IMG/VR virus record: IMGVR_UViG_3300009414_000041
Location: 1 to 33,145 of that record
Length of the DNA stretch: 33,145 nt
Reading direction: 5' to 3' (one strand)
Origin: a virus
The notes beneath the pieces are model-generated. The model had not been told where the DNA came from. It did not search any database and saw only the letters and a program-made list of their open reading frames with translations. Below, piece by piece: positions 1,455-32,697 of this stretch. The position numbers and the translations under genes were made by a program. Each line of letters opens with the position of its first letter. Within the stretch, counting starts at the first letter, position 1.

Positions 1455-1813
1455 TGACACAAGAAAATCCTTATAACTATGCTGAAGGTGATGACTGGAC
1501 TACAGGAGAATACTTAAAACAAAATCCTGCTGCAGCTTACTATTCCTATGCCAATGATTGGGCTGGAACTGGAGGGCCAAGGCAGGAACAGTATTACCAG
1601 AATCAGTTCCAGAATATATATAACCAGTATCTGGGTTCTCTTGGTACTCAGTTGCGTGGTGGCACTATTCCTTCTACTGCAGAGGGAGAAAATACTTGGG
1701 CTGGATATCTCCAGAACTATGACTGGACAGATCAATATACATCCTTGTCTCCTCAAATGAGAGGAGATTTTGAGTCTATGTTTAATCCTAGAACCCGACA
1801 GATATACTTCTAA
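1454..1813 (+). CDS. Small Q/N/Y-rich protein of the same cluster
   Basis: A 119-residue protein, very rich in Q, N, Y and W (for example YYQNQFQNIYNQYLGSLGTQ in its middle). It begins and ends with TAATG junctions, so it is likely translated by coupling between the paralogous gene before it and the giant gene after it. Its composition and segments such as ENTWAGYL resemble the two upstream proteins, but I cannot align it to them convincingly by eye. It may be a shortened third member of the same family. No catalytic or membrane features are visible. Function unknown, probably acting with the giant protein. Confidence 0.8.
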   Translation: MTQENPYNYAEGDDWTTGEYLKQNPAAAYYSYANDWAGTGGPRQEQYYQNQFQNIYNQYLGSLGTQLRGGTIPSTAEGENTWAGYLQNYDWTDQYTSLSPQMRGDFESMFNPRTRQIYF

Positions 1814-4800
1814 TGGGACAAGACATAGGATTGCGTGAAAGAATCGCCAACATGCTCTCTGACGCTAGTCAGTCTGAGTGGGCTTCTTTTGCTATGCCGG
1901 GAACTGACACGGCTATTTCTGCAATCGGCTATGCAATTGAGCCGGATATCGGAAGCCCTTTTGAAAGACAACTTGATTCTCTTCAGACCCCTATAGATAG
2001 AGCGTTTAGTTTTGTAATTGATAAGCTCAAGGGTGGATCAGGAGTTGATACTCCTTTATCTCCAAGACAGCAGAATATCACTAATACTATTTTGTCTGAC
2101 ATAGGAATATCAGAAAACATTACAGAACCTATGTCTCTATCTGGTTCAGATCTTTCATATTGGTTTGAAAAATACGGACGAGCATCGCCGACATCTCCTG
2201 TATATAGTCAAGCTGATACAGTAGAAGTTATCTTAGATAATATGTCAGAAGCTAATAAACAGGCTCAAGCTCTATATGATCGTGGCTATCGTAAAATATC
2301 TTCAAGCGACCACTTTATATTAGATGGAGAAGATAAGACCGGAAGACCTATTAAAAAATATAGTGGCAATAAGGTAGAGCAATGGAGCAAGGTTTCGGGT
2401 GCTCCTAAAAATATTACTGTTATTCCAGATCCTATTAATATTGATGATAGTGGTTTTGAGACAGATAAATATATAAGAGAAAATAATTTAGATAGCAATA
2501 CCAATGAAGTTTATACAAATTCTGAATTTATAGGTATGGTTCAGAAGAGTGTCTTAGATGGAGCTGTTCCAACCAGCGTTCCAGAGATGGCATTGAAAGG
2601 CGGGGGGGAATTAGTTGCTGCTCTTGGAACTCTTGGACAATCTGCTATAGCTATAGAAGCTCAAGAAAACTATGGCATGATGAAAACAGACGGGTGGGAA
2701 GGAGCATTAAATGCAGTTACCTTTGCATTTCCTCCATTCACAGCTTTGTTTGGAGCCCCTGATGTATATGCAGGAGTTATATTTAAATCATTAACATCGG
2801 GTCCGGCAGGAAGATCATTATTTAAATCTAACTATAGGGCACTATATAACTGGGTTGCCAAAGAACCTGATTTGGATATTTCGACTATTACTCCAGATAT
2901 GGTTAATAAAAGAAAAATATTTCAGGATCAAGGCATTCCTGAAGATATGGTAGAACTAACTATGAATATGTGGACTAATGCCGGAGCAGCAAAAGGTAAT
3001 CCTAATCTGTTATTTGAGAACACTGCTGTCAGGGTTATTCCCGATATAGATCCTAAGAGTCCCGGTAGTTTTGCTATAGAGGCTACAAATAAACATTCTA
3101 ATCAATCTACTTACTTTAAGATTAGTCCTATTAATGCTGATATAGATAGAAGAGTTAGGCAGACTACTGAAGAATTTCTAGACTTTGTTGATAACTATTC
3201 AGAATCGATTGGTAGTAGGTTTCCTGATAACTTTGGAGGCTATAACCCTAAAGATAAAACCTTTAAGGTGGGGAGTAGGGATACTTCCGGTAACAGTCTT
3301 ATTAAAACTCTTTTTGTACCTCGAGGAAAAAGAGGACAGGGGGGACGAGGAGCTGAATTACCCATTAATGATCTGTTCGGAGAGTATTCAGGATTAAATG
3401 TAAGTCTTGAAGAGATGAAATGGATTGGACTTGAAGACTGGTTAACAACTAACTACAAACCTCAAAACAGAATTAAGATGACTGAGTTAAGAGAGTTTGT
3501 AGAAAAGAGCCGAATGAAATTAGTTATGTGGAAAGGGAATGACCACTTTGGAAGTCCTGAGTACGGAGCAGTTACTGCTGGTCCTAATCTTGGTAATAAT
3601 ACTGTTTTACTAACACAAATTGATATAGCTAATCTTCCTGACGACAGTACTATTAAACATATGTTTCATCCTTTCAGGGACTTAACTGAAGATATGGTAG
3701 AAGATGAAGATATAGAAGGATTACAAAGTTTATTCTCTACATTTAAAGGACATTACTCTGAGCAATTAACAATAGTTAGTAGAGACCCTGCAAGTACATT
3801 AAGTGAAGCAGAAGAGATAACTGATTTCTATAAGTTTATTCCTGAAGAAGTAATGACACCTACTATTACAGGCAAAACAAAAGTACCTATAACAGATAGA
3901 AATAATATATTTATGACTGCAAGGTACCAATCTAATGTTATATATGAAGATGGTGTTCCTAAAAACACTATGGAAATATTAGAGATACAGACTGATGTAT
4001 TAGATACGGATATTGGTAAGGATGCATTTAAAAAGAAAATGTCCGTTGACTTTAAGTCAGGAGATACCTTGCCGGGCAGATCTTTAACGTGGACTGGTAT
4101 GGGTGGAGCTAAGTGGAATTTTCAAGTGAATGGAGGGGATATAACTATTACTCCTCTTAATAATTCTGCTATGCAAAGAGGAGTAGACACTGCTCCATTT
4201 GAAACAATGTTAGGTAAGTTAGAGATGTTAAGTCAACGTAGTGGGGCATTAACAGTTAATGTTATAGATCATCCTTCGCAAGCTAAATTTCCTTTGATAG
4301 GAATTTCTTTTCCGAAAGAAACTATGCCTTGGGGTGATGTATCAAATATTGATATTGATCCAAAAGTAATTGATGAAATGCTTGAAGTTATCATAGAAGG
4401 TCGTCCCAGAGAGATTTTACCAAGAGATATACGTTGGTCTAAAGAACAATTATTAAATGGAGAATCTGGATTCCAAATTATTCCCAGACAACTTGGCGAT
4501 GATACAGTCTGGGATATTTATGATGGCCCAAAATTAGCGTCTGGTGAGAATGTTATAGCAGATACATTAGCTTCTGAAGATGATGCCGTATATACACTAT
4601 GGTCTATGCTAGATAGTATGCATAAAGACACAATACATAATAATGCTCCCCTTCCCCCTAATCTTATATTTGATAAAGGGTGGCATATGCCTATCTTAAG
4701 AGAAGGTTTTGTTCATGGAGCTATGTCTGGCAAGTCCTATATCACAATAGATAGTGCTGGCGGTGTGATGCAAAGCTATGGGGATGCTGCCCTTAAATAT

Positions 4801-7800
4801 TCTGGCACTAGATACGGCGAAGCCGTCGGAGAATTTAGAGCACAGATACTACCAACACGAATACAGAACTCGATAAAAGCTGTTAGAAGGGCTGTAGACG
4901 AGGGAGTAAATTCATGGAAAAAGAGCCCTAAAGAACCAACTATAGACGGCATGCCTATAAGAGAAATCCCTGAAGATTTTAGAGCTGGAGTTGAAGCTGA
5001 CCCCCAACTGGAATCTATGGGAATGAGGTTGGAACGCCAAACTCCTATAGAAGAAGTTCGTATTGATGATGTGCGTACCGAAGTGGCACTAGAAGCTGAA
5101 ACTGAAAGGGTAGCCGGACTTGCAAATGAGATGGAAAGACGAGGGGTAAAGATGACCCCTGATATTCGAGGAGAAATTGATGCATCACAAGATGCATTAG
5201 GGCAAGCTGGCAAAAGGGTAAATTCTTTATTATACGATGCTATTGCTAAAAGACATGGCGGTAAATCTATAACTAAGTTCGACACTATTTTAGATGATAG
5301 TAATACTAGAGAGATGGGATTCGCACTCGATGAACTTCTTGTAGATGATCCTCCTATGGGATCAACAAGAGCTAACCAGCTAATAGAGGATATTGAAAAT
5401 GAGGCTCAAGGCATATTAGATTCTGGGAAACCTAAAAATACAGGAACACTTATTAAAGGGGCCCAGAAGATTGTCGGAGATATTTTAAGGATGTCTGGAC
5501 ATTCTAGTCTAAAAAATGAACATGCAAAAATACTTATAGGAGCAAAATGGAAACCTACTGGTGTTATGGAAGTTACCCCAGAAGAGCTTATAAATCCTTT
5601 TGGGTTTACTGATGAACAACTACAAATTATTGGTCTTAATAAACCTCCCACAAATGCCTATTTTGATTTAAGAGGTGAGGGTCCAATTCACGAAAGAATT
5701 GAAAAGCTTTCTTGGATGTTGGGCTATGGTGATGAGCCCGGTGATATATATGAAAGCTTTGGATATAGATTAGGTTCTTATGTTTTCAGCGATCAAGAAG
5801 CTGACACACAGGCAGCAAAATTTCTTCAGAGAGCCATTGATAATCTTGATGATATTCCTTACAAGTTAGATGTTGAAGATAACGATATGGGTCGAGCATT
5901 ACTTAATGTATTTGATAATGTTACAGCTCAATCTGTAATAGATAAACTTGATGAGGGTTTTACTACAGCCGATGATGCCAGATCAGGTCTTCTAAATGAT
6001 GCTATATCTGCTTTAGATCAAGAAACTATTTCTGAATTATCAGAGGATGCGACATCTATTGGCCTTATAAGAACAGAATTAGAGACTGGACGTTACGCAC
6101 ATTTAGGATTAGTTCCTCCTAAAGTATTAAACAATTATGAAAGTGGACCATCTAGACCTATTCAACTTATGATGGAAAATGGTGATATAGAGATACGTCA
6201 AGGATTTAGCCATTCTGTTAAAAACCATCTTGAATTAGCAGGATTGGCTACGCATAATGTCCGATACAGTTCAAGTCAAGAAGATATTTTAGAAACAATT
6301 CTAGATGCTGCATTAGATGTTGCCCTTGAGAGTGGAACTATATCCAGTAAAAGCGACTTAATAGATCATCTTGGTATGAATCCACTGGCAAAATTATCTT
6401 TTGGAGAGACAGATAAGGGTAGATGGATACATTCTATTGATCTTAATAAAAGTATTGTTGACGATCAGGGTAATTACATTCCAGAACTAGGTTTAAAAGG
6501 TAAACCAAATAGTAAATTCCCCCATGCTCCTACTACATTAGGAGAAGCTATCCGTGTTGGATATATGAGACTGTACCAAACTACAGACGAACTACCAATA
6601 GGCGGTAGGATATTAGGATTTACAGATATATTTAGTGATGGTACTTACCTTGTAAGCCTTACTAAGTCTGCTGACTTTAGAACTGCCATACATGAGTACG
6701 GTCATGTACTAAGAAGAAACTTAACTAACGAGCAATTAAAAGTTGCTGGTGAGTTTTCAATGGGGCCAGAGGTATTTAACGCTTTAGATAATAAAAATAT
6801 CTGGACTAGAGAAGGGGAAGAGGCATTTGCTGATGCCTTTGAACTCTATGTTACTACTGGATATGCCAAGACTAGAGAACTTAAAAATGTATTTGAAGTA
6901 TTTAAAGATTGGCTTATTAAAACATACAGGTCTATTAGAGGTACAGAACTTGAAGAGAACCTAAGTCCTGAGTTAAAGGCAATGTTCGATGATCTGGCTC
7001 GACCTGTAACTCCATCTAATAGAAAGATTAAGAATAATGTTCTTGAACATGAAGAAGCTACAGCCAATGCTTTCTTTGGTAATAAGAATAAGACTGTCAG
7101 GATTCCAGAAGATCCTGATAGGTTATATAGAAAGGATCATACTACTGTTGATAGGTTAGCCCTTGAGCCCGATGAAGTTATTAGGAAAAGAGTAAGAGCA
7201 GTTAGGTCGGTAGGGAAGCTATTAGAAAAACATAATCTTACAAAGGTTCAATTGTTAAAGGCAGGATATGTAACTAAAACACGCATCACTGGTAGCACTG
7301 GAAGAGTGAGGACCGAATATCGTATTCATAAAAAAGATGTTGAATCTTATCTAAGACATGAAGATAGACCTAAACCAAGTATAGAAGCCACAGATCCTGC
7401 TATCATTAATCTGCCTAGCCATGATGCAAAACTTAGCTGGCATCAGAAGAGAGCTGTTGATTCTTTAGATCCTCCCAAGCCACAAGTTATTGATTCTAAA
7501 GCATACAGAGAAGCAGGAAAACCTACCTTCCTTGGTAATTACATATTAAAATACTTAGCTAAACATCCAAAGTCTTCTGTAGATAATATATATGGAGCTA
7601 TAGTAAAAGAGTCTCAATCAAAATCTTCAACTGCTTGGAAAAAACTTTCAAGGAAAGCTGAATTTTATAATAGGGGTCAAAGTAAGTTTGTTCATCCTTC
7701 AGACAGGCGACCTCAAGGGATTCCTAATAAAGCCAGAATAGAAAGAGAACTTACTAGAGTAACAGGGACACGAACTCCCGGTTATGTAAAGGGTCCGAAA

Positions 7801-10800
7801 TTTCTTTATGACCCTATTGGTCCTTATGTAGAAGTTGATGAAGATGGATTGTGGTCAGTTATGCCACAGGACCGACTGTATAAGATTGTCGATGACGAAG
7901 GGACACCGCCTAAAGGAATAGATGAAGCAGGGCAAGTTACTCCTCCCATTGAATCTTTATCTTCGTTACAGAATATAGAGAATGTTATTAGTGCTAACTT
8001 TATTGTTAATAACTATCGGAGATTAGCTCAGACTCCGGGCCTTAAACATATTATTAGTAGATTAAATCCTGCCAGTGCAGCAAATGATCCACTATCTAAA
8101 TCATTAATTGCACATGCCATGCTTAAAGAAGAGGGTAAACAGAAAGCAGAAATTGCTTTCACAAGATTATCTAGGCTGGGTTCTCAACGTAAAGTCTTTG
8201 GCGAACTAGACGATACAGGAAGAATTGCAGAAGGTCCACTTAGAGGTAAGAACGTAAATGATATACGTTCTAACTATTCAGAATATGAATCTTCTTTAAG
8301 TGAAGCTCAGAAAGAATGGGTTCAAATTGCTAATGCTATTGAAGATGCAAAACTGGCAATGTTTAGAGCAGAAGGTATAGACATTAATGAACTCGCTGTA
8401 ACAGAAGGTGGACATTACGCTGGTCGTAGATTAATGGGTCGTGTATTTGTTGATGGTGAGTATGTAGATATCGGAGTTGTAGCCGGGCCGGGCAGACCCG
8501 GAACAAGATCTGCTCAAGAAAAGGAAAGATATTTTGAGACTGCCGAAGAAGCTATAGAAGCTGGATATAGATATCTTGATGATGATGAAGCACTATTAAT
8601 GAACCTACAGGCTGCCTATAGAAGAGTAGCTGACAAGAGAGCAGTTGACCATATTGTTAACAATGTAGTTTCTACCAGAACAACTGGTGCTCCTGAAGAA
8701 TTAATACAAAGCAGAGGATTGGCTGGTAAACGATTAGCTGCTGCAAAAACACTAATAGAAGAAATACAGAGAGCTAAACGTGGTGGCCAAATAACAGCAC
8801 AGGCTCGCAAGTCTATTGAGAATATGCTACCTGAGATAGAGGGTATGCTTGGTGATACTGCTGCAATATCACTAGAGCAACTTATAAAAGCTGGACGTAT
8901 TGCAGAAGACCAACCTAGTACATTTGTACCGCAGAAAGGAATGATTAAGGCTCTCTTCCGAAGAGTTCAAGAATTAGAGCAGCAAATTGATGATATAACA
9001 GAAGCTGGCATGCAAGTACCTTCAGAGTTATATCAGAGATTAAATAAAATGAGAGGAGATCTAGGATTTCAAAAGCATATGGTTGCCGAAGCCTATGCAA
9101 ACTATAAAGCCTATGGAACCTTTGAGTACACATGGAGTAAATCAGCTACCAGTATTCTTGTAGCTGATAGGGTTGGAGCATTAGATGAAATACTAGAACT
9201 TGTTAGAGGCAAGCCTGTTATAGGAACTACTTCAGGTGGAAAGCAAACTACTTATTATCGTGGAGGTCTTGTCGATTCATTAAAAGCTGAGAAGGCAGAA
9301 ATAGATCTTGAGATTTCAAATCTTAGACTAGAACAACCAAAATTATTTGAAGGTAGCTTGGGTCAACAGGTTCCTGCCTTTGCCGGTAAATTCTTTACTA
9401 AGGATCAGCCTTTAAGTTTAAGAAAACCTGACGGATCTAAGATGCGTGGCATAGATGTTCAGAGAGCTATTGGTCAGGCAATGGTAGACAACAGGGAGTT
9501 TAGTGAGGCTTTAAATTCTATTAATACTGCTAACTCTATGTTTAGGTTCTTCCAATTAGCTGGTGACATGTCAGCATTCGGAATACAGCTTTTGTTCTTA
9601 TGGGGACAGACAGTTAGGAATCCACTATTTATGGCTAAAGCTATGAAGGGATTTGTCTCTGCATTTGTAGACCCAACATTCCATCAGAACTATATACATA
9701 ACCATAGGGAGCTTTTATCAAAACATCCCGGCATGATGATATCTACTGGAGGAACAGAGTTTACTGAATTTACTAGGTTAATGGCTAATGCTGGATTTGT
9801 AAGAACTAAACCAATAAGAGTTTCAAAAGAAGTATTAGAGAGAGTACCCGGTCTTCCACAGGCAGGAAGGACATATGTAGGACTTCTAAAGAGGGCACAG
9901 TCAGGATTTGAAACAGCATTAGATGTAGCTGGTATCGAAATGGCAAAGGCATTTGAAGGGCGATATTCTCATCATGCAGACGTACAGCAGATAGATGACT
10001 TTATTAATGAGTTTAGAGGGCTTGCTAATCCAGCTAGGCTGGGTGTTTCTACAAAACAAAGACAATTAGAAACTCTAGCTTTGCTCGCTCCAAGATATAA
10101 CAGGGCTATAGCAGCAATGTTAGGAGATGTCTTTAGTGGAAATATAAGAGGGAATGAAGCCAGAAAGACACTGGCTGCTGGTATAGGAAGTATTATGGCA
10201 ATGGCTGTTGCTATATCTTTTGCGAAAGGAGAAGATCCAGAAGAGGTAGCAGAACACTTTAATCCCACTAGCCCTATGTTTATGACTTGGAATGTAGGTG
10301 GAACTAATATTGGAGTTGGATCTAAAGTAAGATCTCTCATCAAGCTTGGAGGAGGAATCTATGCTACTGGATCAGGAGATGATCCTATAGATCTATTTAC
10401 TCTTAGCATGGACAATCCCGGTATACGATTCGTAAGAGGTAACGCATCTCCAGTTGTAGGATCTGCGATTGATATCCTTTCAGGAAGAACTTATATGGGA
10501 GACCCTGTATACGGTGGATCTCCTTGGGATATAAAGGGCCACATAATAAACTTTACTAAAGAAGAAATAGCTCCAAAGACGATGCCTATATGGGCACAGG
10601 CCGTAGTTCTTGAAGGTGGTAACCCTCAACAGAGAGCTATAAAGGGACTTGTTGAATTCGTTGGGGGCAGAGCATATCCACAAGGATCATTCCAAATGCT
10701 ACGGGGATACGCACAGGAACATGTAGGTATTGATTATGAAGACATGGAACCATTTGAGAGAAGAATATTAAGAGAATACCTCTCAGACGAGCTAGACCCT

Positions 10801-11379
10801 ATGCTTCTTGAGAAAGTAAAGCAAGGAGATAAAGATGCCCAATACTGGTTAGCAATAAAGCAATTAGACGAAGAAAGATTCTCGAGGGAAGAAGCACTGT
10901 TAAAACAGTTTATGAATCCTAGAAAGTATCCTAGATTTTTAGTGCGTGGGGCACAAGTACTTAGGCAAGAATTTAGTGATCTTCAAGAACAGCATGCTAC
11001 TCAGAAAGCATCATTAAATAAACAGTTTGGTATGTACCAAGACGATCAAACTTTTGATAAGAACGACCCTAAGAAATTTATATTATCGGAATGGTATAAC
11101 TTATATGATAAAGCAACTGATCCAGATTCTGGTGCTTTTGATTATGAAAGACTACAAGCATTACAACGTAATTTCTATAAGAAGACTCTTCCGAATGGAG
11201 ATTCTTATAATCAATATAAAGACTTTATTATTAGAAATACATCTAATACTCGACACCCTAAAGGATACGAGACTGTTATGTCCAGAAATACTGTCGAAAG
11301 ATGGCAGCGTGCAGAAGAAGCAAGAGTTGACTTCTTAAGAAACAGAGGTAAGTGGTCCAATATATTGGACAGCCAGTAA
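1813..11379 (+). CDS. Giant 3188-residue polyvalent/internal virion-type protein with HEYGH metallopeptidase motif
   Basis: This gene occupies 9.6 kb as one uninterrupted frame, coupled to the preceding gene by TAATG. A zinc metallopeptidase signature, HEYGH, lies at residues 1627-1631, followed about 40 residues later by EGEEAFADAF, where E1669 or E1670 could be the third ligand. Residues about 1780-1960 look like winged-helix or other DNA-binding segments (basic, TKVQLLKAGYV). A coiled coil is likely at about 2377-2420. Hydrophobic stretches occur near 304-325 and 2788-2806. The C-terminal third (LLAPRYNRAIAAML, then SPVVGSAIDILSG near 2880) resembles the tail of large phage proteins with fused polyvalent domains, from memory rather than a search. 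It sits between the left-hand genes and the scaffold, as ejected internal proteins or MuF-like fusions often do. Injection with the DNA is an inference. No methylase or helicase motifs were seen. Confidence 0.85.
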   Translation: MGQDIGLRERIANMLSDASQSEWASFAMPGTDTAISAIGYAIEPDIGSPFERQLDSLQTPIDRAFSFVIDKLKGGSGVDTPLSPRQQNITNTILSDIGISENITEPMSLSGSDLSYWFEKYGRASPTSPVYSQADTVEVILDNMSEANKQAQALYDRGYRKISSSDHFILDGEDKTGRPIKKYSGNKVEQWSKVSGAPKNITVIPDPINIDDSGFETDKYIRENNLDSNTNEVYTNSEFIGMVQKSVLDGAVPTSVPEMALKGGGELVAALGTLGQSAIAIEAQENYGMMKTDGWEGALNAVTFAFPPFTALFGAPDVYAGVIFKSLTSGPAGRSLFKSNYRALYNWVAKEPDLDISTITPDMVNKRKIFQDQGIPEDMVELTMNMWTNAGAAKGNPNLLFENTAVRVIPDIDPKSPGSFAIEATNKHSNQSTYFKISPINADIDRRVRQTTEEFLDFVDNYSESIGSRFPDNFGGYNPKDKTFKVGSRDTSGNSLIKTLFVPRGKRGQGGRGAELPINDLFGEYSGLNVSLEEMKWIGLEDWLTTNYKPQNRIKMTELREFVEKSRMKLVMWKGNDHFGSPEYGAVTAGPNLGNNTVLLTQIDIANLPDDSTIKHMFHPFRDLTEDMVEDEDIEGLQSLFSTFKGHYSEQLTIVSRDPASTLSEAEEITDFYKFIPEEVMTPTITGKTKVPITDRNNIFMTARYQSNVIYEDGVPKNTMEILEIQTDVLDTDIGKDAFKKKMSVDFKSGDTLPGRSLTWTGMGGAKWNFQVNGGDITITPLNNSAMQRGVDTAPFETMLGKLEMLSQRSGALTVNVIDHPSQAKFPLIGISFPKETMPWGDVSNIDIDPKVIDEMLEVIIEGRPREILPRDIRWSKEQLLNGESGFQIIPRQLGDDTVWDIYDGPKLASGENVIADTLASEDDAVYTLWSMLDSMHKDTIHNNAPLPPNLIFDKGWHMPILREGFVHGAMSGKSYITIDSAGGVMQSYGDAALKYSGTRYGEAVGEFRAQILPTRIQNSIKAVRRAVDEGVNSWKKSPKEPTIDGMPIREIPEDFRAGVEADPQLESMGMRLERQTPIEEVRIDDVRTEVALEAETERVAGLANEMERRGVKMTPDIRGEIDASQDALGQAGKRVNSLLYDAIAKRHGGKSITKFDTILDDSNTREMGFALDELLVDDPPMGSTRANQLIEDIENEAQGILDSGKPKNTGTLIKGAQKIVGDILRMSGHSSLKNEHAKILIGAKWKPTGVMEVTPEELINPFGFTDEQLQIIGLNKPPTNAYFDLRGEGPIHERIEKLSWMLGYGDEPGDIYESFGYRLGSYVFSDQEADTQAAKFLQRAIDNLDDIPYKLDVEDNDMGRALLNVFDNVTAQSVIDKLDEGFTTADDARSGLLNDAISALDQETISELSEDATSIGLIRTELETGRYAHLGLVPPKVLNNYESGPSRPIQLMMENGDIEIRQGFSHSVKNHLELAGLATHNVRYSSSQEDILETILDAALDVALESGTISSKSDLIDHLGMNPLAKLSFGETDKGRWIHSIDLNKSIVDDQGNYIPELGLKGKPNSKFPHAPTTLGEAIRVGYMRLYQTTDELPIGGRILGFTDIFSDGTYLVSLTKSADFRTAIHEYGHVLRRNLTNEQLKVAGEFSMGPEVFNALDNKNIWTREGEEAFADAFELYVTTGYAKTRELKNVFEVFKDWLIKTYRSIRGTELEENLSPELKAMFDDLARPVTPSNRKIKNNVLEHEEATANAFFGNKNKTVRIPEDPDRLYRKDHTTVDRLALEPDEVIRKRVRAVRSVGKLLEKHNLTKVQLLKAGYVTKTRITGSTGRVRTEYRIHKKDVESYLRHEDRPKPSIEATDPAIINLPSHDAKLSWHQKRAVDSLDPPKPQVIDSKAYREAGKPTFLGNYILKYLAKHPKSSVDNIYGAIVKESQSKSSTAWKKLSRKAEFYNRGQSKFVHPSDRRPQGIPNKARIERELTRVTGTRTPGYVKGPKFLYDPIGPYVEVDEDGLWSVMPQDRLYKIVDDEGTPPKGIDEAGQVTPPIESLSSLQNIENVISANFIVNNYRRLAQTPGLKHIISRLNPASAANDPLSKSLIAHAMLKEEGKQKAEIAFTRLSRLGSQRKVFGELDDTGRIAEGPLRGKNVNDIRSNYSEYESSLSEAQKEWVQIANAIEDAKLAMFRAEGIDINELAVTEGGHYAGRRLMGRVFVDGEYVDIGVVAGPGRPGTRSAQEKERYFETAEEAIEAGYRYLDDDEALLMNLQAAYRRVADKRAVDHIVNNVVSTRTTGAPEELIQSRGLAGKRLAAAKTLIEEIQRAKRGGQITAQARKSIENMLPEIEGMLGDTAAISLEQLIKAGRIAEDQPSTFVPQKGMIKALFRRVQELEQQIDDITEAGMQVPSELYQRLNKMRGDLGFQKHMVAEAYANYKAYGTFEYTWSKSATSILVADRVGALDEILELVRGKPVIGTTSGGKQTTYYRGGLVDSLKAEKAEIDLEISNLRLEQPKLFEGSLGQQVPAFAGKFFTKDQPLSLRKPDGSKMRGIDVQRAIGQAMVDNREFSEALNSINTANSMFRFFQLAGDMSAFGIQLLFLWGQTVRNPLFMAKAMKGFVSAFVDPTFHQNYIHNHRELLSKHPGMMISTGGTEFTEFTRLMANAGFVRTKPIRVSKEVLERVPGLPQAGRTYVGLLKRAQSGFETALDVAGIEMAKAFEGRYSHHADVQQIDDFINEFRGLANPARLGVSTKQRQLETLALLAPRYNRAIAAMLGDVFSGNIRGNEARKTLAAGIGSIMAMAVAISFAKGEDPEEVAEHFNPTSPMFMTWNVGGTNIGVGSKVRSLIKLGGGIYATGSGDDPIDLFTLSMDNPGIRFVRGNASPVVGSAIDILSGRTYMGDPVYGGSPWDIKGHIINFTKEEIAPKTMPIWAQAVVLEGGNPQQRAIKGLVEFVGGRAYPQGSFQMLRGYAQEHVGIDYEDMEPFERRILREYLSDELDPMLLEKVKQGDKDAQYWLAIKQLDEERFSREEALLKQFMNPRKYPRFLVRGAQVLRQEFSDLQEQHATQKASLNKQFGMYQDDQTFDKNDPKKFILSEWYNLYDKATDPDSGAFDYERLQALQRNFYKKTLPNGDSYNQYKDFIIRNTSNTRHPKGYETVMSRNTVERWQRAEEARVDFLRNRGKWSNILDSQ

Positions 11380-11403: not shown

Positions 11404-11419
11404 TTGAGTTTAAATTCAA
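11404..11419. repeat. 16-bp palindrome copy 1 (TTGAGTTTAAATTCAA)
   Basis: Matches the consensus TTGAGTTTAAACTCAA in 15 of 16 positions. This is the only copy lying entirely between genes, and it follows the -10 box of the head promoter by 11 bases. The position fits an operator where a bound dimer would block transcription start or escape. Confidence 0.75.
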
Positions 11420-11434
11420 ATACATGGAGACCTT

Positions 11435-12190
11435 ATGACAACCAATTCTGATATACCAGTAGAGCCAGAAGAGCAACAAGCAGAAGGTGCTATTGGTAGT
11501 ACATATACAGAATATGGACCGACAGATACGGAGGCAGAGCCAGTTTCAGATGTGGCTTCCGACTTTCCTCCGGCTCCAACCACACCTGAGACTACTCTGT
11601 CTCCCCCAACTGATGATCCCGTTACCCCTGTTCCCAACGCCGACCCAACTCTTCAACAACAACAAGATGAAGTTGCTCGCCAAAGAAGAGAATATGAGGC
11701 GATCCAAGAACGTGACAAGATTATTTCCAATCTTGAACAAGAAGCTCTTCAAATGGAGCAGAAACTTTTACGAGAGGGGTATTCCGATAGTGAAGCAAAA
11801 CAGCAAACTATGGGTCATCTTGAGGGGCGAGTCAACCAGATACAACAACAAAGAAATGCTCAACAGCAAGTAGACGTAGAAAGAGGAAAGCGAAATGCTT
11901 CAATACATTTCGCTAAGAAATATAATTTAGGTCTTGAAACTCTTGGTAGTTTAGAACAAGCCAGAAATCCTAAAGAAATGGAAGACATGGCTAAAACTAT
12001 ATCTACTATGGAGTCGCAGAGAAAAGAGATAGCAGAATTAAAGTCACGATTAGCTCCACAGCAATCGTTTGACACTAATACTCCTAGCCCTGCTGCTGCG
12101 ACAAACGATGATAGATTGCTAGACGCATATCTAGCAGGGGATAGATCTGATGCAGCAACTGCTGCAGCAGCAAAGTTACTAGGAATATAG
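11435..12190 (+). CDS. Probable capsid scaffolding protein
   Basis: A 251-residue protein immediately upstream of the major capsid gene, the classical scaffold position. Residues 1-70 are acidic and proline-rich with low complexity. Residues about 75-140 and 170-205 are Q/E/K/R-rich and strongly predicted coiled coil (for example ISNLEQEALQMEQKLLREGY). The C-terminus is alanine-rich. The absence of catalytic motifs and the overall disordered, helical character fit phage scaffolds, which fill the procapsid and leave before or during packaging. The start ATG has GGAGA five bases upstream. Transcription probably comes from the promoter at 11365-11392. The role is inferred from position and composition, not from a conserved motif. 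Confidence 0.75.
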   Translation: MTTNSDIPVEPEEQQAEGAIGSTYTEYGPTDTEAEPVSDVASDFPPAPTTPETTLSPPTDDPVTPVPNADPTLQQQQDEVARQRREYEAIQERDKIISNLEQEALQMEQKLLREGYSDSEAKQQTMGHLEGRVNQIQQQRNAQQQVDVERGKRNASIHFAKKYNLGLETLGSLEQARNPKEMEDMAKTISTMESQRKEIAELKSRLAPQQSFDTNTPSPAAATNDDRLLDAYLAGDRSDAATAAAAKLLGI

Positions 12191-12199
12191 GGGGGCGTA

Positions 12200-13066
12200 A
12201 TGGCTCAAACTGCAACAACAGGAAACCTTGAGAAAGCACAGAAGACTATTATTGCCACTGCTAGATATACAGAGGAGCACAATGCTCCAGCTATGGCACT
12301 GATAGAGTCCATGAATCTGCCAAAGGGATCGTCAACAGTGACAGTTCCTAAAGTTGGTCAGATGTCTATGAGTGATCTTGTCGATGGACAAGACATCATA
12401 GATGAAGAAGAGATTGGGATGACTACTGTAGATCTCACAGCTAGTGAGGTTGGAGCTAAAATTATTCTTACGGATAAGCTAGTAAGACAGATGGCTCAGA
12501 ATGTCTTCTCTATCATAGGGCGACAGCTCGGTGATGGAATGGCCCGAAAGAAAGATACAGATGTACATGCTCTGTATTCTGGATTGAATGGAGGAACAAC
12601 TCTTGGAGCTGCTGGTGGAGCAGTAACGCTGGCTAAGATTGCTGGTGCGATTGCCTACACTAAAGCTAATAAGTTTGGTTCTCAGGTATATATCCTTCAG
12701 CACCCTAATGCTGTATATCAGATAGCTGCTACTGCTGTAACAGCATCTACTACATATCCAGTTCCTGCTGGATGGTCTTCTGATTTGCTTGGCAACTTCT
12801 TTAGTGGGCTCCGACCACTTAATGGAGTACCAATCTTTGAAGACGGAAACCTTTCAATAGATAGTAGTGATGATGCTATTGGTGTCATAGCTGCTAAAGA
12901 CGCATTGGTAGTTCTTAACTCAGTAGATACTAGAACAGAGAGGCAGAGAGATGTTTCTCTTAGGGCTACTGAAGTGGTGATGACCGCCGATTACGGGGTT
13001 TTTGAGCTAGACGATAGTCGAGGAGCACCTCTTACTTATGATGCTTCTGCTCCTGCGACAAGTTAA
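12200..13066 (+). CDS. Major capsid protein (HK97-fold type)
   Basis: The 288-residue product has features I recognise from phage coat proteins: an early helix, then a segment on target to the E-loop (VPKVGQMSMSDLVDGQDIID), a helical spine region after TDKLVRQMAQNVFSIIGRQLGDGMARKKD, a P-domain and A-domain with the typical KFGSQVYILQHPNAVYQIA, then LNGVPIFED and a C-terminal VSLRATEVVMTADYGVFELDD. This fits the HK97-fold coat of marine podoviruses and siphoviruses. The start has an unusual all-G Shine-Dalgarno-like run (GGGGGG) a few bases upstream. It lies directly between the scaffold and a small Cys-motif protein in the head operon. Confidence is high for capsid identity and lower for which subfamily. 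Confidence 0.88.
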   Translation: MAQTATTGNLEKAQKTIIATARYTEEHNAPAMALIESMNLPKGSSTVTVPKVGQMSMSDLVDGQDIIDEEEIGMTTVDLTASEVGAKIILTDKLVRQMAQNVFSIIGRQLGDGMARKKDTDVHALYSGLNGGTTLGAAGGAVTLAKIAGAIAYTKANKFGSQVYILQHPNAVYQIAATAVTASTTYPVPAGWSSDLLGNFFSGLRPLNGVPIFEDGNLSIDSSDDAIGVIAAKDALVVLNSVDTRTERQRDVSLRATEVVMTADYGVFELDDSRGAPLTYDASAPATS

Positions 13067-27741: not shown

Positions 27742-28025
27742 TACACTGCTCCTGTTCCATAAAAATAATCTTCTTCTTCTCTTGCACTCATCGCTGCCTC
27801 TGGTAGATGGTCATATGTATTATTAGAATCTTGGAATCCAAAGTTTGCATCAGGATATTCTTCTTGTGCTTCTTCTAGTGTCATGAACCCATCTATATAT
27901 GTCTTACGTTGCTGTCCTGCTAGTAAAGATCCTTGTTCCCATGTTCCCCATCCATATACATTGAATGGCATACCGCCATACCCTGATCTGTCTGGCTCTA
28001 TGGTGTAGTAATCGTTGTCACTCAT
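27741..28025 (-). CDS. Small hypothetical protein, tyrosine/glycine-rich
   Basis: 94 residues from ATG 28025. The frame is open further upstream, but AAGGAGG eight bases before this ATG and TAATG coupling to the preceding ATP-grasp gene decide the start. It is acidic and aromatic, with YTIEPDRSGYGGMPFNVYGW, a basic segment and ALEEAQ-like helices in the second half. No catalytic motif. It directly follows the ATP-grasp domain gene, so it could be a partner or a substrate-like protein of that system. That is only context-based inference. Confidence 0.65.
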   Translation of the reverse strand: MSDNDYYTIEPDRSGYGGMPFNVYGWGTWEQGSLLAGQQRKTYIDGFMTLEEAQEEYPDANFGFQDSNNTYDHLPEAAMSAREEEDYFYGTGAV

Positions 28026-28834
28026 TACACTGCCTCCTTCATGGCTGTAATTTCCCTTACCTGTAGTATCCAAGGCTTATAATTTTTATCTATGGCCCAC
28101 TCAATATCTACTGGTCTTTTATAGTTAGCCTCTAACCTTTTAGCTTCTGCCCATATGGATTGCATTGCTATATCATTACTCCAATGCATGTCTCCAAAGA
28201 TTGACTTTGATGGAAACACTTTGCGATGTAGAAAGGCATGTTGTGATTCGTTATTGCCATCTACTACTCCACCTACACCTTGTTCCCACTCTACTAACAT
28301 CTGATCTGAGCCACCTACTGGCTCCTTAGAGAAGAGAACACCTGAGATCTTGGCATCTACCATAGGCATGATGATTACTGCTACGTCATTCCGGTATTTA
28401 TCTTCAAAATTATGGTAGTGATGTGACACTCCCATTTTATTTAGGTATGCCTCTGACCTAGCTGTATTAGCTGAGCCTCTCACTTCTCTTACTGCTTGTT
28501 CTAATCCGGTAATAGGAACATTGAGTTTAGACTCAAATATTCCAGCATAGCTCTGGTCTTTGCCGTCTTCCATTGAAGCAGATGACCTGACTGCATACCG
28601 TCTACCGTTAGTGACTGGGACACCGTTAACATAAACATAATCGTTTCCTGCTATGCTGTACCATGCCTCTAGTACTGTTCGTTCTATCTCTGAGTCAGGG
28701 CATGTGGCTACTATTGTTACCCAGTCTGGGACCATGTTAGATGCTATGTTCCTTAACTGCCTAGCCTTGCCACCTACCTCTTCGTCACCCCAGTTATTGT
28801 TATTGTCCTTAGTAGATAGATAAGATATTTCCAT
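28025..28834 (-). CDS. ATP-binding domain of a PEP-synthase/PPDK-like phosphotransferase, stand-alone
   Basis: 269 residues from ATG 28834 (TAATG coupling, AAGGAG upstream). It carries the ATP-grasp signatures of pyruvate phosphate dikinase N-terminal domains. GGKARQL with K23 is near the start. RYAVRSSASMEDG with R83 is followed by SYAGIFESKLNV. A later strand, VIIMPMVDAKISGVLFSKEP, leads to the GVGGVVDG loop. The C-terminal DIEWAIDKN with D243 and E245 precedes PWILQVREIT with Q258 and R260. In PEP synthase and rifampicin phosphotransferase this domain phosphorylates a His on a swivelling domain. Here it is short, lacks the other domains and is a separate gene. The His domain is encoded 3.5 kb upstream in the same operon. 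Substrate unknown. Confidence 0.85.
   Translation of the reverse strand: MEISYLSTKDNNNNWGDEEVGGKARQLRNIASNMVPDWVTIVATCPDSEIERTVLEAWYSIAGNDYVYVNGVPVTNGRRYAVRSSASMEDGKDQSYAGIFESKLNVPITGLEQAVREVRGSANTARSEAYLNKMGVSHHYHNFEDKYRNDVAVIIMPMVDAKISGVLFSKEPVGGSDQMLVEWEQGVGGVVDGNNESQHAFLHRKVFPSKSIFGDMHWSNDIAMQSIWAEAKRLEANYKRPVDIEWAIDKNYKPWILQVREITAMKEAV
28521..28536. repeat. 16-bp palindrome copy 6 (TTGAGTTTAGACTCAA)
   Basis: 15 of 16 positions match. It lies in the ATP-grasp gene where the antisense-strand codons read TTT GAG TCT AAA CTC AAT (F-E-S-K-L-N), which is part of a motif constrained at protein level. So this copy satisfies both codes. Confidence 0.65.
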
Positions 28835-29325
28835 TACTCTATGTCTCCTTCTGTATTTCCATATGCACAAGCTCCGCATTTCATTCCGGCCTGTACTCTA
28901 GCGTCATCTTCTTTTACCTCTCCACATTCACCACATATCATTAGCTTTGTAGACAGTGCAAATGTTATTGCTTGCATCTGTTGCTTTTGTAGTTGTGTTA
29001 GTGCAACACCTACACTTCTGCATGCTTGCTCTGTATGTACCATGATCCTAGCGATGTAAGAGTTTAGATCTTTCTCACTCTCAAATACTGGTACATGATG
29101 GTTGTGGTTCTGTAGTTCTGTTATATATGTAGGACAGCCATCGCCTTTGCGATTGCAATTTACCATAGGTATAGGTACTTGTAGTTCCAGTAGGTGTTTG
29201 ACTATATCCTTTGATGGATGAGAGAAAAACTGTGGTGATGCTGTTAACAATGTGCCGTCACCATCTCTGGTTGAATTGATTATTACTTCTAGGTTTAGTT
29301 CTTTACTTGGAAACTGTTGGCTCAT
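28834..29325 (-). CDS. Hypothetical protein with C-terminal zinc ribbon
   Basis: 163 residues from ATG 29325. The C-terminal part has two Cys pairs, CGECG and MKCGACAYG, about 17 residues apart, a zinc ribbon. The N-terminal 90 residues have no recognised motif (SPQFFSHPSKDIVKHLLELQ, then a Cys and Gly-rich NCNRKGDGC segment). It lies between the phosphatase gene (23-base overlap) and the ATP-grasp gene (TAATG). It may be an adaptor or nucleic-acid-binding partner in that group. Function unknown. Confidence 0.7.
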   Translation of the reverse strand: MSQQFPSKELNLEVIINSTRDGDGTLLTASPQFFSHPSKDIVKHLLELQVPIPMVNCNRKGDGCPTYITELQNHNHHVPVFESEKDLNSYIARIMVHTEQACRSVGVALTQLQKQQMQAITFALSTKLMICGECGEVKEDDARVQAGMKCGACAYGNTEGDIE

Positions 29326-30166
29326 CTGCTCTTTCCTTTCTCACCTTTGTTAGTACGTTGTAGTATTGTTTAATTAATTGTTCTTGTGCTACTGTTTCGA
29401 TTGCCCTGTTGCAGTGCTCCTTTCTTACCTTCTCTATTGCTTCATCTGCTGTGTAGTTTTGGAATACCAGTATGCCAGCTAGTAGTGTGCCAGTTCTGCC
29501 ATGACCACCGACACAGGCTATGTCTAGTTTTTCCCCATGCTTTATCTGTGTCATGCACCAAGCTACTATCTCACTGAAGTCTGTTAAAGGTAGAACCCCC
29601 ATGTCACTCCAGTTAATTACGATGTATGGATAATCATTCTCTTGGAATAGCTGACTGAAATTGTTGTCAGGTCTGAAGTCAGAGGTAAACATAACTCTGG
29701 CTTTCATCCAAGCATCATCTAAGTAACAGCCCATTGTTACCTCTGGTCTGTCACCTTTCTTTAGTGAGCCTGACCTAGATGATAGGTATACAGTTTCACC
29801 ATTGCGTAATTGAAACTTGTCCCTGTTGTGACCACAAGGTACTATCTTTGGGTAGTATTTCTTATGGGGTTGCTTAGTTGACTGGAATCCGGGCATAGTG
29901 GTTTGCTTACCGTACCCATAGAAGTCATCTGATGTATCACCTATAAGACTATCTACTGCTTCCAGTAGTACTAGTTCTTTAGTATAGAATGTATCGAGTT
30001 GCATTTGCTTCTCGTTATATACATCTACCTTATTGCCTCGTTGCTCTATGACCTCTGCTTCCTGTCCACTTGGTAGTCTAACTATGTCACCTGATAAATA
30101 TACTGTTGTCTTTCCCACTTGTAATAAACCCTTTAGGCTTTTGATTCCTCGTTGCAATATTCGCAT
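29303..30166 (-). CDS. Dual-specificity/tyrosine phosphatase-like protein
   Basis: 287 residues from ATG 30166, chosen because AAGGAG lies eight bases upstream. The longer frame to 30253 overlaps its neighbour and lacks a site. The C-terminal domain has the cysteine-phosphatase motif CVGGHGRTG (C218, R224, the CX5R signature) with a preceding beta strand, and WSDMG (D188) may supply the general acid. The N-terminal half (about 1-150) is a separate basic, beta-rich region with a CGHNRDKF segment. Phosphatases of this type remove phosphate from Tyr/Ser/Thr or other substrates. Between the two split phosphotransferase genes, this could be the reverse enzyme of a phosphorylation cycle. This is inference. 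Confidence 0.75.
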   Translation of the reverse strand: MRILQRGIKSLKGLLQVGKTTVYLSGDIVRLPSGQEAEVIEQRGNKVDVYNEKQMQLDTFYTKELVLLEAVDSLIGDTSDDFYGYGKQTTMPGFQSTKQPHKKYYPKIVPCGHNRDKFQLRNGETVYLSSRSGSLKKGDRPEVTMGCYLDDAWMKARVMFTSDFRPDNNFSQLFQENDYPYIVINWSDMGVLPLTDFSEIVAWCMTQIKHGEKLDIACVGGHGRTGTLLAGILVFQNYTADEAIEKVRKEHCNRAIETVAQEQLIKQYYNVLTKVRKERADEPTVSK

Positions 30167-31077
30167 AGACAATGCTCCTTTATAAAATCCTCTTTGAATA
30201 ATTGATGTACCATTCTGTTTGTTCTGTTCCATAGTTTGCAGTAGAAACCCCATTGGTTTAGATCTAACGATGTCTTAATACCCATTGTGTTCCACCATTT
30301 GTTGAAGTAAGTACCGTTGTTATGTTGTAGTCCCCAACATGTATCTATGAATGTATGTGGTGTTATATGTCCTCTCTCGTACATGTATAGAGTGTTTGCT
30401 ATGTTGCCCCAAGGTAAGCCACCATACCCACCGTTGTATCTCTTTGGTGTATTGAAACAACTAACTGCCCACTTCAGTGCTAGTGTTCCGTACCTCTGTC
30501 TGAACCAGTACCATCCTTCCCATGCTGAGTTACGACTGCCTCTTATAGTCTCATCCTTTAGTGCTATCTGTAGTGGCCTTGCTAAGTTTGTTGTATTCTT
30601 AGCATGTCTCAACTCTCCACCTACTGCCATGTCTGTGTATCTACAGAACTGATCCAGTATTATTTTTGTCTTAGCAGTTAGGTACGGTTCATACTTCTTA
30701 GGGTCTATGATTGTTCCTAGTGTTAAGAGATAGTAGTCTGCTGATTCTTTAGCTAAACTCCACTCCATACCCTTTAGTCCCCATTGGTTGTCTCCTGTCT
30801 TTATTACTTTGGCTGCCGTACTACTTGCCTTTGATGTAGGTGTATACTGGCTGAGTAATGTCTGGGTAGGACTGGCTCCTGATAGCTTCTGGTAGTAGTC
30901 AGCTTGCCATTTCCCTGTAGTTATTACCTTTGTTGTTCCAGCCCCATTAGTAAATGAAGTTTTCTCTGTGATTTTCCAAGGGTATGTTGTTTGACTACCA
31001 TGATTAAGGTATGGTTTCTGAGTAAAATTGTATAGATCCCAGACGTTATACCCAGCATGTATTGTATACACCGTCAT
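30133..31077 (-). CDS. Hypothetical 314-residue protein, Trp/Tyr-rich, with C-terminal CxxC
   Basis: The protein starts with AAGGA six bases upstream and is three bases after the previous stop. It is rich in W, Y, N and G. Segments include YNVWDLYNF, YLLTLGTIIDPKKYEPYLTA, SRNSAWEGWYWFRQRYGTLA and GGYGGLPWGNIANTLYMYER, and the last residues contain CLCEYC. Helical character dominates and there is no membrane segment. I recognise no family or active site. It belongs to the leftward operon, next to the phosphatase (34-base overlap) and the SprT-like gene, so a role with that set is possible. Confident as a gene, unknown as to function. Confidence 0.75.
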   Translation of the reverse strand: MTVYTIHAGYNVWDLYNFTQKPYLNHGSQTTYPWKITEKTSFTNGAGTTKVITTGKWQADYYQKLSGASPTQTLLSQYTPTSKASSTAAKVIKTGDNQWGLKGMEWSLAKESADYYLLTLGTIIDPKKYEPYLTAKTKIILDQFCRYTDMAVGGELRHAKNTTNLARPLQIALKDETIRGSRNSAWEGWYWFRQRYGTLALKWAVSCFNTPKRYNGGYGGLPWGNIANTLYMYERGHITPHTFIDTCWGLQHNNGTYFNKWWNTMGIKTSLDLNQWGFYCKLWNRTNRMVHQLFKEDFIKEHCLCEYCNEESKA

Positions 31078-32379: not shown

Positions 32380-32697
32380 CTATGTAGTTAGCTCTAGTAT
32401 CATTGCTTCTTTGATACTTTTAACTGAGATTGTTACTCGTCTTCCTGCTAATTCAGTCGCTCTTTTGGTGTTTACTACACATGGTTTGCCCATCTCTCTT
32501 GCTACTATGGCAGCGTGGCATGTAATAGATCCTCTGTCTGTAGCTATACCAGATGCTAGTCTCATAGCTGGTACGTTGTCTGGTGTAGTCATGGTTGCTA
32601 CCAGTATGTCTCCCTCTGTAAAGTCTGGGTCATCTGGTAGTCTGGCTGTGCCAGTAGCTTCTCCGATGTATGCTCCAAGTCCCGAGTAATTAGTCAT
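32380..32697 (-). CDS. Stand-alone phosphohistidine (PEP-utilising enzyme mobile) domain
   Basis: 105 residues, a complete swivelling domain. GEATGTARLPDDPDFTEGDI opens it, then TMTTPDNVPAMRLASGIATD, then the catalytic GSITCHAAIVAREMGKPCVV with H61 as the phosphorylated residue. It closes with ATELAGRRVTISV. In PEP synthase, PPDK and rifampicin phosphotransferase this domain carries phosphate between the ATP-binding site and the substrate site. The ATG has GGAG eight bases upstream. It is separate from its expected ATP-grasp partner, which is encoded downstream in the same operon. Neither protein has the pyruvate- or drug-binding domain, so the acceptor is unknown. Confidence 0.85.
   Translation of the reverse strand: MTNYSGLGAYIGEATGTARLPDDPDFTEGDILVATMTTPDNVPAMRLASGIATDRGSITCHAAIVAREMGKPCVVNTKRATELAGRRVTISVKSIKEAMILELTT

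Follow-up and report, generated by a model that had tools for sequence, protein, structure and literature searches.

What does a phage do with a protein of 3,188 residues whose gene lies among the head genes and which matches a single known family? The question is raised by a virus record of IMG/VR, 33,145 bases long and analysed here over its whole length (hereafter, the window). The features of the window that bear on it are listed below; residue numbers are those of the giant protein, and L-numbers denote other contigs.

1813-11379, + strand: giant open reading frame (ORF) of 3,188 aa, with an ATG start and without an internal stop
1813-6186, + strand: N-terminal part, aa 1-1458, without a known domain; fast-evolving (dN 0.91 against L102)
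6568-7062, + strand: zincin metallopeptidase domain, aa 1586-1750 (phrog_9880, alignments, structural model with realignment, profile scan)
6691-6705, + strand: HEYGH active-site motif, aa 1627-1631 (alignment of relatives)
6820-6822, + strand: E1670, probable third zinc ligand (invariant in a 56-row alignment)
7063-7944, + strand: basic stretch, aa 1751-2044, apparently for the most part a lineage-specific insert (gap in L102; K+R 19%)
7945-11376, + strand: C-terminal module, aa 2045-3188, conserved in L102, L015 and L016 and predicted to be mostly helical
10168-10224, + strand: hydrophobic segment, aa 2786-2804 (Kyte-Doolittle), conserved in the clade
3-854, + strand: C-terminal end of a 596-aa protein encoded between the portal candidate and the giant (full length at 2665-4455 of L003)
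867-1454, + strand: 195-aa protein, a paralogue of the 596-aa protein
1454-1813, + strand: 119-aa protein, whose stop overlaps the start of the giant
11404-11419, no strand: copy of the palindrome TTGAGTTTAAACTCAA between the giant and the scaffold-like gene (palindrome scan)
11435-12190, + strand: scaffold-like protein of 251 aa, called from its position and sequence character, without a family match
12200-13066, + strand: major capsid protein (MCP; PF25209, E 2e-9; PHROGs major head protein)

The giant protein and its relatives

The ATG of the giant and the stop of the preceding 119-aa gene overlap by one base (TAATG). Four other IMG/VR contigs (L002, L003, L004 and L017) contain copies 99-100% identical to the giant, the L003 copy being 99.7% identical over the whole protein. 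Two contigs (L015 and L016) encode relatives 53-56% identical to its C-terminal part, and L102 encodes a complete relative of 2,935 aa, 35% identical overall, in the same gene order. Because of these copies and relatives, the ORF is not a chance one, and the protein of 3,188 residues named in the original prediction is borne out. When the whole giant was searched against Pfam, NCBIfam and PHROGs, phrog_9880 was the only match, and aa 1-1458 had no family match in these three collections. The protein had also been called a fusion. This description holds for a zincin domain and for a weakly winged-helix-like insert, outside which Pfam, PHROGs and NCBIfam gave no known domain.

The zincin domain is followed by the basic stretch, most of which is aligned with a gap in L102 (246 of 294 residues) and much of which L015 also lacks. 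The K+R content of this stretch is 19%, compared with 10-13% in the other parts of the giant. This basic insert of up to about 250 aa, largely absent from relatives, looks lineage-specific. Winged-helix proteins were weakly matched at aa ~1787-1852 and ~1902-1991 (VIA Z 2.9-3.9), and the winged-helix-like region proposed earlier is kept here, at the strength of these structural matches, as a plausible feature of the modelled insert. A hydrophobic region had been proposed as well, and one strong segment agrees with it (aa 2786-2804, Kyte-Doolittle 1.88); L015 and L102 have hydrophobic counterparts.

The part after the zincin domain is 1,450 aa long, or about 1,200 aa without the insert. An AF2 model of the C-terminal part had a pLDDT of 46 and, at this low confidence, was mostly helical. 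When the C-part profile was compared with 18 others, only one cluster was similar, and marginally so (score 41, decoy maximum 27.5, probability 21%), and we do not claim a relation to it. A scan of genome contigs with the C-part of the giant found no relative, and two hunts with regular-expression motifs in the C-parts linked only clade mates, apart from a chance-like match in L058. LPD38 (PF18857), considered as a possible look-alike of this C-part, gave no match anywhere; this result is uninformative, since the controls had no match either.

The zincin domain

The phrog_9880 match covers aa 1608-1726 (E 1.5e-13). A tblastn search with the zincin stretch found large proteins of Caulobacter, Pseudomonas, Xanthomonas, Vibrio, Cobetia, Leptolyngbya and archaeal phages. 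When viral contigs were scanned with an alignment of eight rows, at least 426 stretches were confirmed by tblastn, and 80 loci were kept; giant zincin proteins are thus present in numerous uncultured phages. Among 86 more distant relatives, near-identical copies being left out, 72 have HExxH and 13 have HExxxH (L032, L033, L034, L035, L036, L037, L046, L051, L054, L067, L068, L070 and L091). The one relative with neither motif in its best-scoring stretch, L005, has a second stretch that contains HEIGH. As HExxH was not part of the scan pattern, which lay on the ExFAxxFE helix downstream, its conservation gives a largely independent test. All 56 rows of the alignment, which were chosen to contain HExxH, have H1627, E1628, H1631 and E1670, and from the sequences E1670 is likely to be the third zinc ligand.

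AlphaFold modelled the zincin core (aa 1600-1729, residues 131-260 of the model) with block-mean pLDDT values of 82-95. Foldseek with the 576-aa zincin model found no significant match in the PDB. On realignment, however, the top 12 rows were all the M34 gluzincin catalytic domain. Z was about 5, with rmsd 5.1-5.4 over 92-98 residues except in one row; these values are weak alone. Gluzincin is the fold family named for the MPTase in a survey of polyvalent proteins (PMC5512222). A zincin sequence profile ranked zinc peptidases first in the PDB at non-significant E-values, and the model had three significant matches in a viral library, all of them fragments of large proteins, one of which has the same product name as the RefSeq BPP-1 homologue. 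Sequence and model together strongly support a genuine zincin domain around HEYGH as the zinc-peptidase core of the giant. The original prediction had placed a peptidase core here and had singled out E1628 for mutation. The numbering is right, as HEYGH is aa 1627-1631, and the domain and structure searches agree with the peptidase core through the signs of a zinc-peptidase fold at aa 1600-1729, the gluzincin realignment and the kept metal-site residues. Furthermore, the glutamate is kept along with the ligands, and HExxH or HExxxH is present in 85 of the 86 relatives; therefore catalysis is indicated. A literature search found no demonstrated activity for the peptidase of giant zincin proteins.

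Among 70 complete ORFs that contain the zincin domain, the median length is 2,756 aa. Before the zincin they have between 311 and 2,929 aa, and after it a median of 1,121 aa (interquartile range 1,091-1,310). Outside the zincin, the C-parts fall mostly into clusters without detectable relation. Pfam searches with the non-zincin parts of 20 relatives found ART-PolyVal (three members), LPD1, LPD5, LPD14, LPD22 and LPD23, and also ddrB-ParB, DNA methylase and GNAT domains. In cultured podoviruses, the gene of the giant relative follows those of the tail nozzle, the internal virion protein and the structural lysozyme and precedes that of the tail spike; relatives of the zincin giants hold the ejection-protein slot there. 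Our literature search found no virion proteome containing a direct homologue of the giant. The conserved post-zincin length, the kept metal site and a very fast N-terminal part suggest a common delivery chassis with variable host-facing cargo.

Gene neighbourhood and evolutionary rates

The near-identical contig L003 reaches further upstream than the window, and the order in it is terminase large subunit (TerL; phrog_2), 592-aa portal candidate, 596-, 195- and 119-aa proteins, giant, 251-aa scaffold-like protein and MCP; the portal candidate is called from its position and a weak profile link. The giant is thus encoded by a phage with TerL (by PHROGs, in L003) and adjoining virion genes that include MCP. 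L102 has the same gene order, with counterparts 78% (portal candidate), 90% (MCP), 83%, 85% and 73% identical; a 256-aa protein downstream of MCP is divergent (31% identity to its L102 counterpart). The giant is likewise followed at a short distance by an MCP in the contigs of a second group (L023, L031, L039 and L044). The 596-aa and 195-aa proteins are paralogous (26% over 220 columns, E 5e-9).

When the window lineage is compared with L102, pS is 0.64-0.74 for MCP, the portal candidate, the 428-, 251-, 596-, 195- and 119-aa genes and the N- and C-parts of the giant, 0.78 for the zincin and 0.40 for a 107-aa gene. The dN values rise from 0.07 in MCP, 0.12 in the 107-aa gene, 0.13 in the portal candidate and 0.20 in the 428-aa gene, through 0.38 in the 119-aa gene, 0.40 in the 251-aa gene, 0.44 in the zincin and 0.51 in the C-part, to 0.65 in the 195-aa gene, 0.88 in the 596-aa gene and 0.91 in the N-part of the giant. 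The fastest genes measured are therefore the giant and its upstream neighbours, whose dN is far above that of the capsid genes at similar pS. In the N-part, non-synonymous change is about 13 times that of the capsid protein at similar synonymous divergence, a contrast that is approximate because synonymous sites are near saturation; for the same reason, exchange with a distant lineage is a possible source of it. We infer that the pace of the giant and the upstream genes fits host-facing or co-ejected proteins rather than parts of the shell. The 596-aa and 195-aa proteins, which evolve almost as fast as the N-part, are possible co-ejected partners of the giant.

One alternative is that the giant is a capsid-internal maturation peptidase, mainly a morphogenesis factor, which would cut itself, the scaffold or neighbouring proteins in the prohead. 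Many phages encode a prohead protease between portal and scaffold/MCP. The giant occupies this slot, and its peptidase domain is conserved; furthermore, DdrB of P1, which bears an MPTase, is reportedly cleaved before packaging (PMC5512222). However, 3,188 aa is far above the size of known prohead proteases, the pace of change in the N-part does not suit a shell-processing enzyme, and in cultured podoviruses the homologous zincin is found in the ejection slot, away from MCP. Moreover, MCP has no obvious cleavable N-terminal domain, since it is short (288 aa) and a separate scaffold-like gene is present. We thus consider a maturation peptidase unlikely.

Comparison with known systems

Iyer et al. 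(2017) surveyed the polyvalent proteins of phages and described a zincin-like MPTase, together with a set having HExxxH (PMC5512222). The giant is similar in having a zincin with HExxH and a downstream Glu in a large phage protein, and its zincin relatives carry ART-PolyVal, ddrB-ParB and LPD domains or, in 13 cases, HExxxH. It differs in that no second domain of known activity was found by Pfam or NCBIfam. The Pfam model MPTase-PolyVal (PF18818) matches neither the giant nor N4, although N4 was assigned an MPTase in the survey (PMC5512222).

The virion RNA polymerase gp50 of coliphage N4 is encapsidated in 4 +/- 1 copies per virion and is ejected. Its N-part is followed by a C1 domain that contains HExxH and then by a C2 of 1,125 aa, which is helical and for which no structural relatives were reported; the C-terminal domain of gp50 regulates the polymerase (PMC12633501). 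The protein is reported to be packaged unprocessed, and its encapsidation requires the region that includes the MPTase (PMC5512222). The variable N-part, zincin and long C-part of the giant match gp50 in layout and lengths. The profile link between the two zincins is weak (on HELVH of N4; score 34.8, decoy maximum 24.1, probability 6%), profile comparison of the two C-parts gave no link, and the N-part of the giant had no link to the N4 polymerase and N-terminal domain, although the positive control worked. No RNA polymerase was matched when the N-part was compared with the N4 RNAP domain and the whole protein with PDB sequences, searches by sequence that may miss one.

Giants with phrog_9880 in short-tailed phages (Cobetia Carin1 gp32, Pseudomonas AF gp16, Caulobacter Jess A and Bordetella BPP-1 Bbp10) share the homologous zincin and have a C-part of about 1,100 aa behind it. 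By blastp, the zincin of the giant matched Carin1, AF, Jess A, CP2, Vibrio 1.021 and vir555 (E about 1e-8 to 1e-12). However, these giants are encoded after internal virion proteins and the structural lysozyme, whereas that of the window is encoded before scaffold and MCP, and their N- and C-parts have no detectable relation to those of the window giant.

Together, these results make it probable that the giant is an encapsidated and ejected cargo protein of a tailed phage, belonging to the polyvalent zincin class. The zincin is common to a large family of giant phage proteins with the metal site kept, its model is confident, and the realigned top matches are gluzincins. In cultured podoviruses, relatives adjoin internal virion proteins and structural lysozyme, and several relatives have polyvalent-protein Pfam domains. 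The gene itself lies in a head module, between portal candidate and scaffold/MCP, as in L102; the layout, with a median post-zincin length of 1,121 aa, is that of gp50, and the giant and its upstream genes have a dN far above that of the capsid genes. The relatives and the neighbourhood suggest packing in the capsid and delivery into the host with DNA. Injection with DNA and processing in the capsid had both been proposed, and by analogy the family evidence fits both, given the relatives in the ejection slot, the polyvalent-protein domains and the N4 layout. The giant is a new, fast-changing example of a known, poorly understood class of phage proteins.

As cargo, the giant would be made from the head-gene region and packaged in the capsid. 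The conserved C-terminal module of about 1,150 aa may serve in packaging or membrane anchoring, as the N4 region encompassing the MPTase is needed for encapsidation. The protein would cross the portal and tail in extended form and enter the host ahead of or with DNA, where the zincin, through H1627, E1628, H1631 and E1670, may cut the giant itself, freeing the N-terminal part, or a host protein. The N-terminal 1,450 aa or so would face the host, and a possible role of the basic insert within aa 1751-2044 is DNA binding. One further reading, which we consider doubtful, is that this insert, with its resemblance to winged helices, and the N-terminal part together make up an injected machine of a new type that acts early in infection, such as a take-over factor that binds DNA or a channel across the membrane combined with an effector. 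Self-cleavage by the zincin after entry would then release this machine, and the C-terminal module would stay as an anchor.

Another possibility, which we regard as quite improbable, is an ejectosome-like structural or channel protein whose zinc domain is vestigial or purely structural and which acts without proteolysis. The reported unprocessed packaging of gp50, which has the same layout, and the regulation of the polymerase by its C-terminal domain are in its favour, as is the single hydrophobic helix conserved in the clade. However, the general-base glutamate is kept with the ligands throughout the relatives with either motif, which argues against the loss of catalysis.

Two further proteins were considered. 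A T7 gp16-type internal virion protein, encoded after tail and internal virion genes and often a transglycosylase, does not fit the giant, whose gene lies before scaffold and MCP and for which Pfam and NCBIfam gave no transglycosylase match. The HK97-type prohead maturation protease, which is small and serine-type and shares the portal-MCP slot, does not fit the 3,188-aa size and the zincin domain.

Tail type and other genes of the window

No tail-tube, tape-measure or tail-chaperone gene was recognisable in the window, and thus the phage is probably short-tailed. Relatives of its MCP are found in phages annotated with siphovirus-like tail genes, including pelagiphages with tape measure proteins (HTVC026P and others). 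The downstream proteins of 428 and 652 aa had no tblastn match in phage records. It is very improbable that the giant is a tape measure or other tail protein, as its great length, its apparent richness in helices, an insignificant match to Pfam TMP_3 in one of four relatives (E 0.92) and the tape measures of those MCP relatives might suggest, because it precedes MCP in a window where no tail-tube or chaperone gene was recognised, and because, in cultured phages with short tails, its relatives are encoded downstream of the tail nozzle and internal virion proteins.

Some minor observations were made elsewhere in the window. Two separate genes in an opposite-strand block encode the halves of a split PEP-synthase-like pair, a PPDK_N ATP-binding domain at 28025-28879 (- strand, E 2e-30) and a PEP-utilising mobile domain at 32380-32697 (- strand, E 5e-24). 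The ORF at 29303-30253 (- strand), which lies between them, had weak matches to dual-specificity phosphatases (E 4e-4 to 5e-3, below the Pfam cut-offs), which conflict with its match to a PHROGs family labelled thymidylate synthase (E 7e-20). The palindrome TTGAGTTTAAACTCAA occurs in eight copies with at most two mismatches, starting at 11404, 14442, 22454, 24122, 26236, 28521, 31260 and 32916, whereas 0.32 copies are expected at up to three mismatches and none of 100 shuffles reached eight. One copy lies in the 55-nt gap between the giant and the scaffold-like gene, and others are inside ORFs; the palindrome is possibly an operator or a replication or packaging site.
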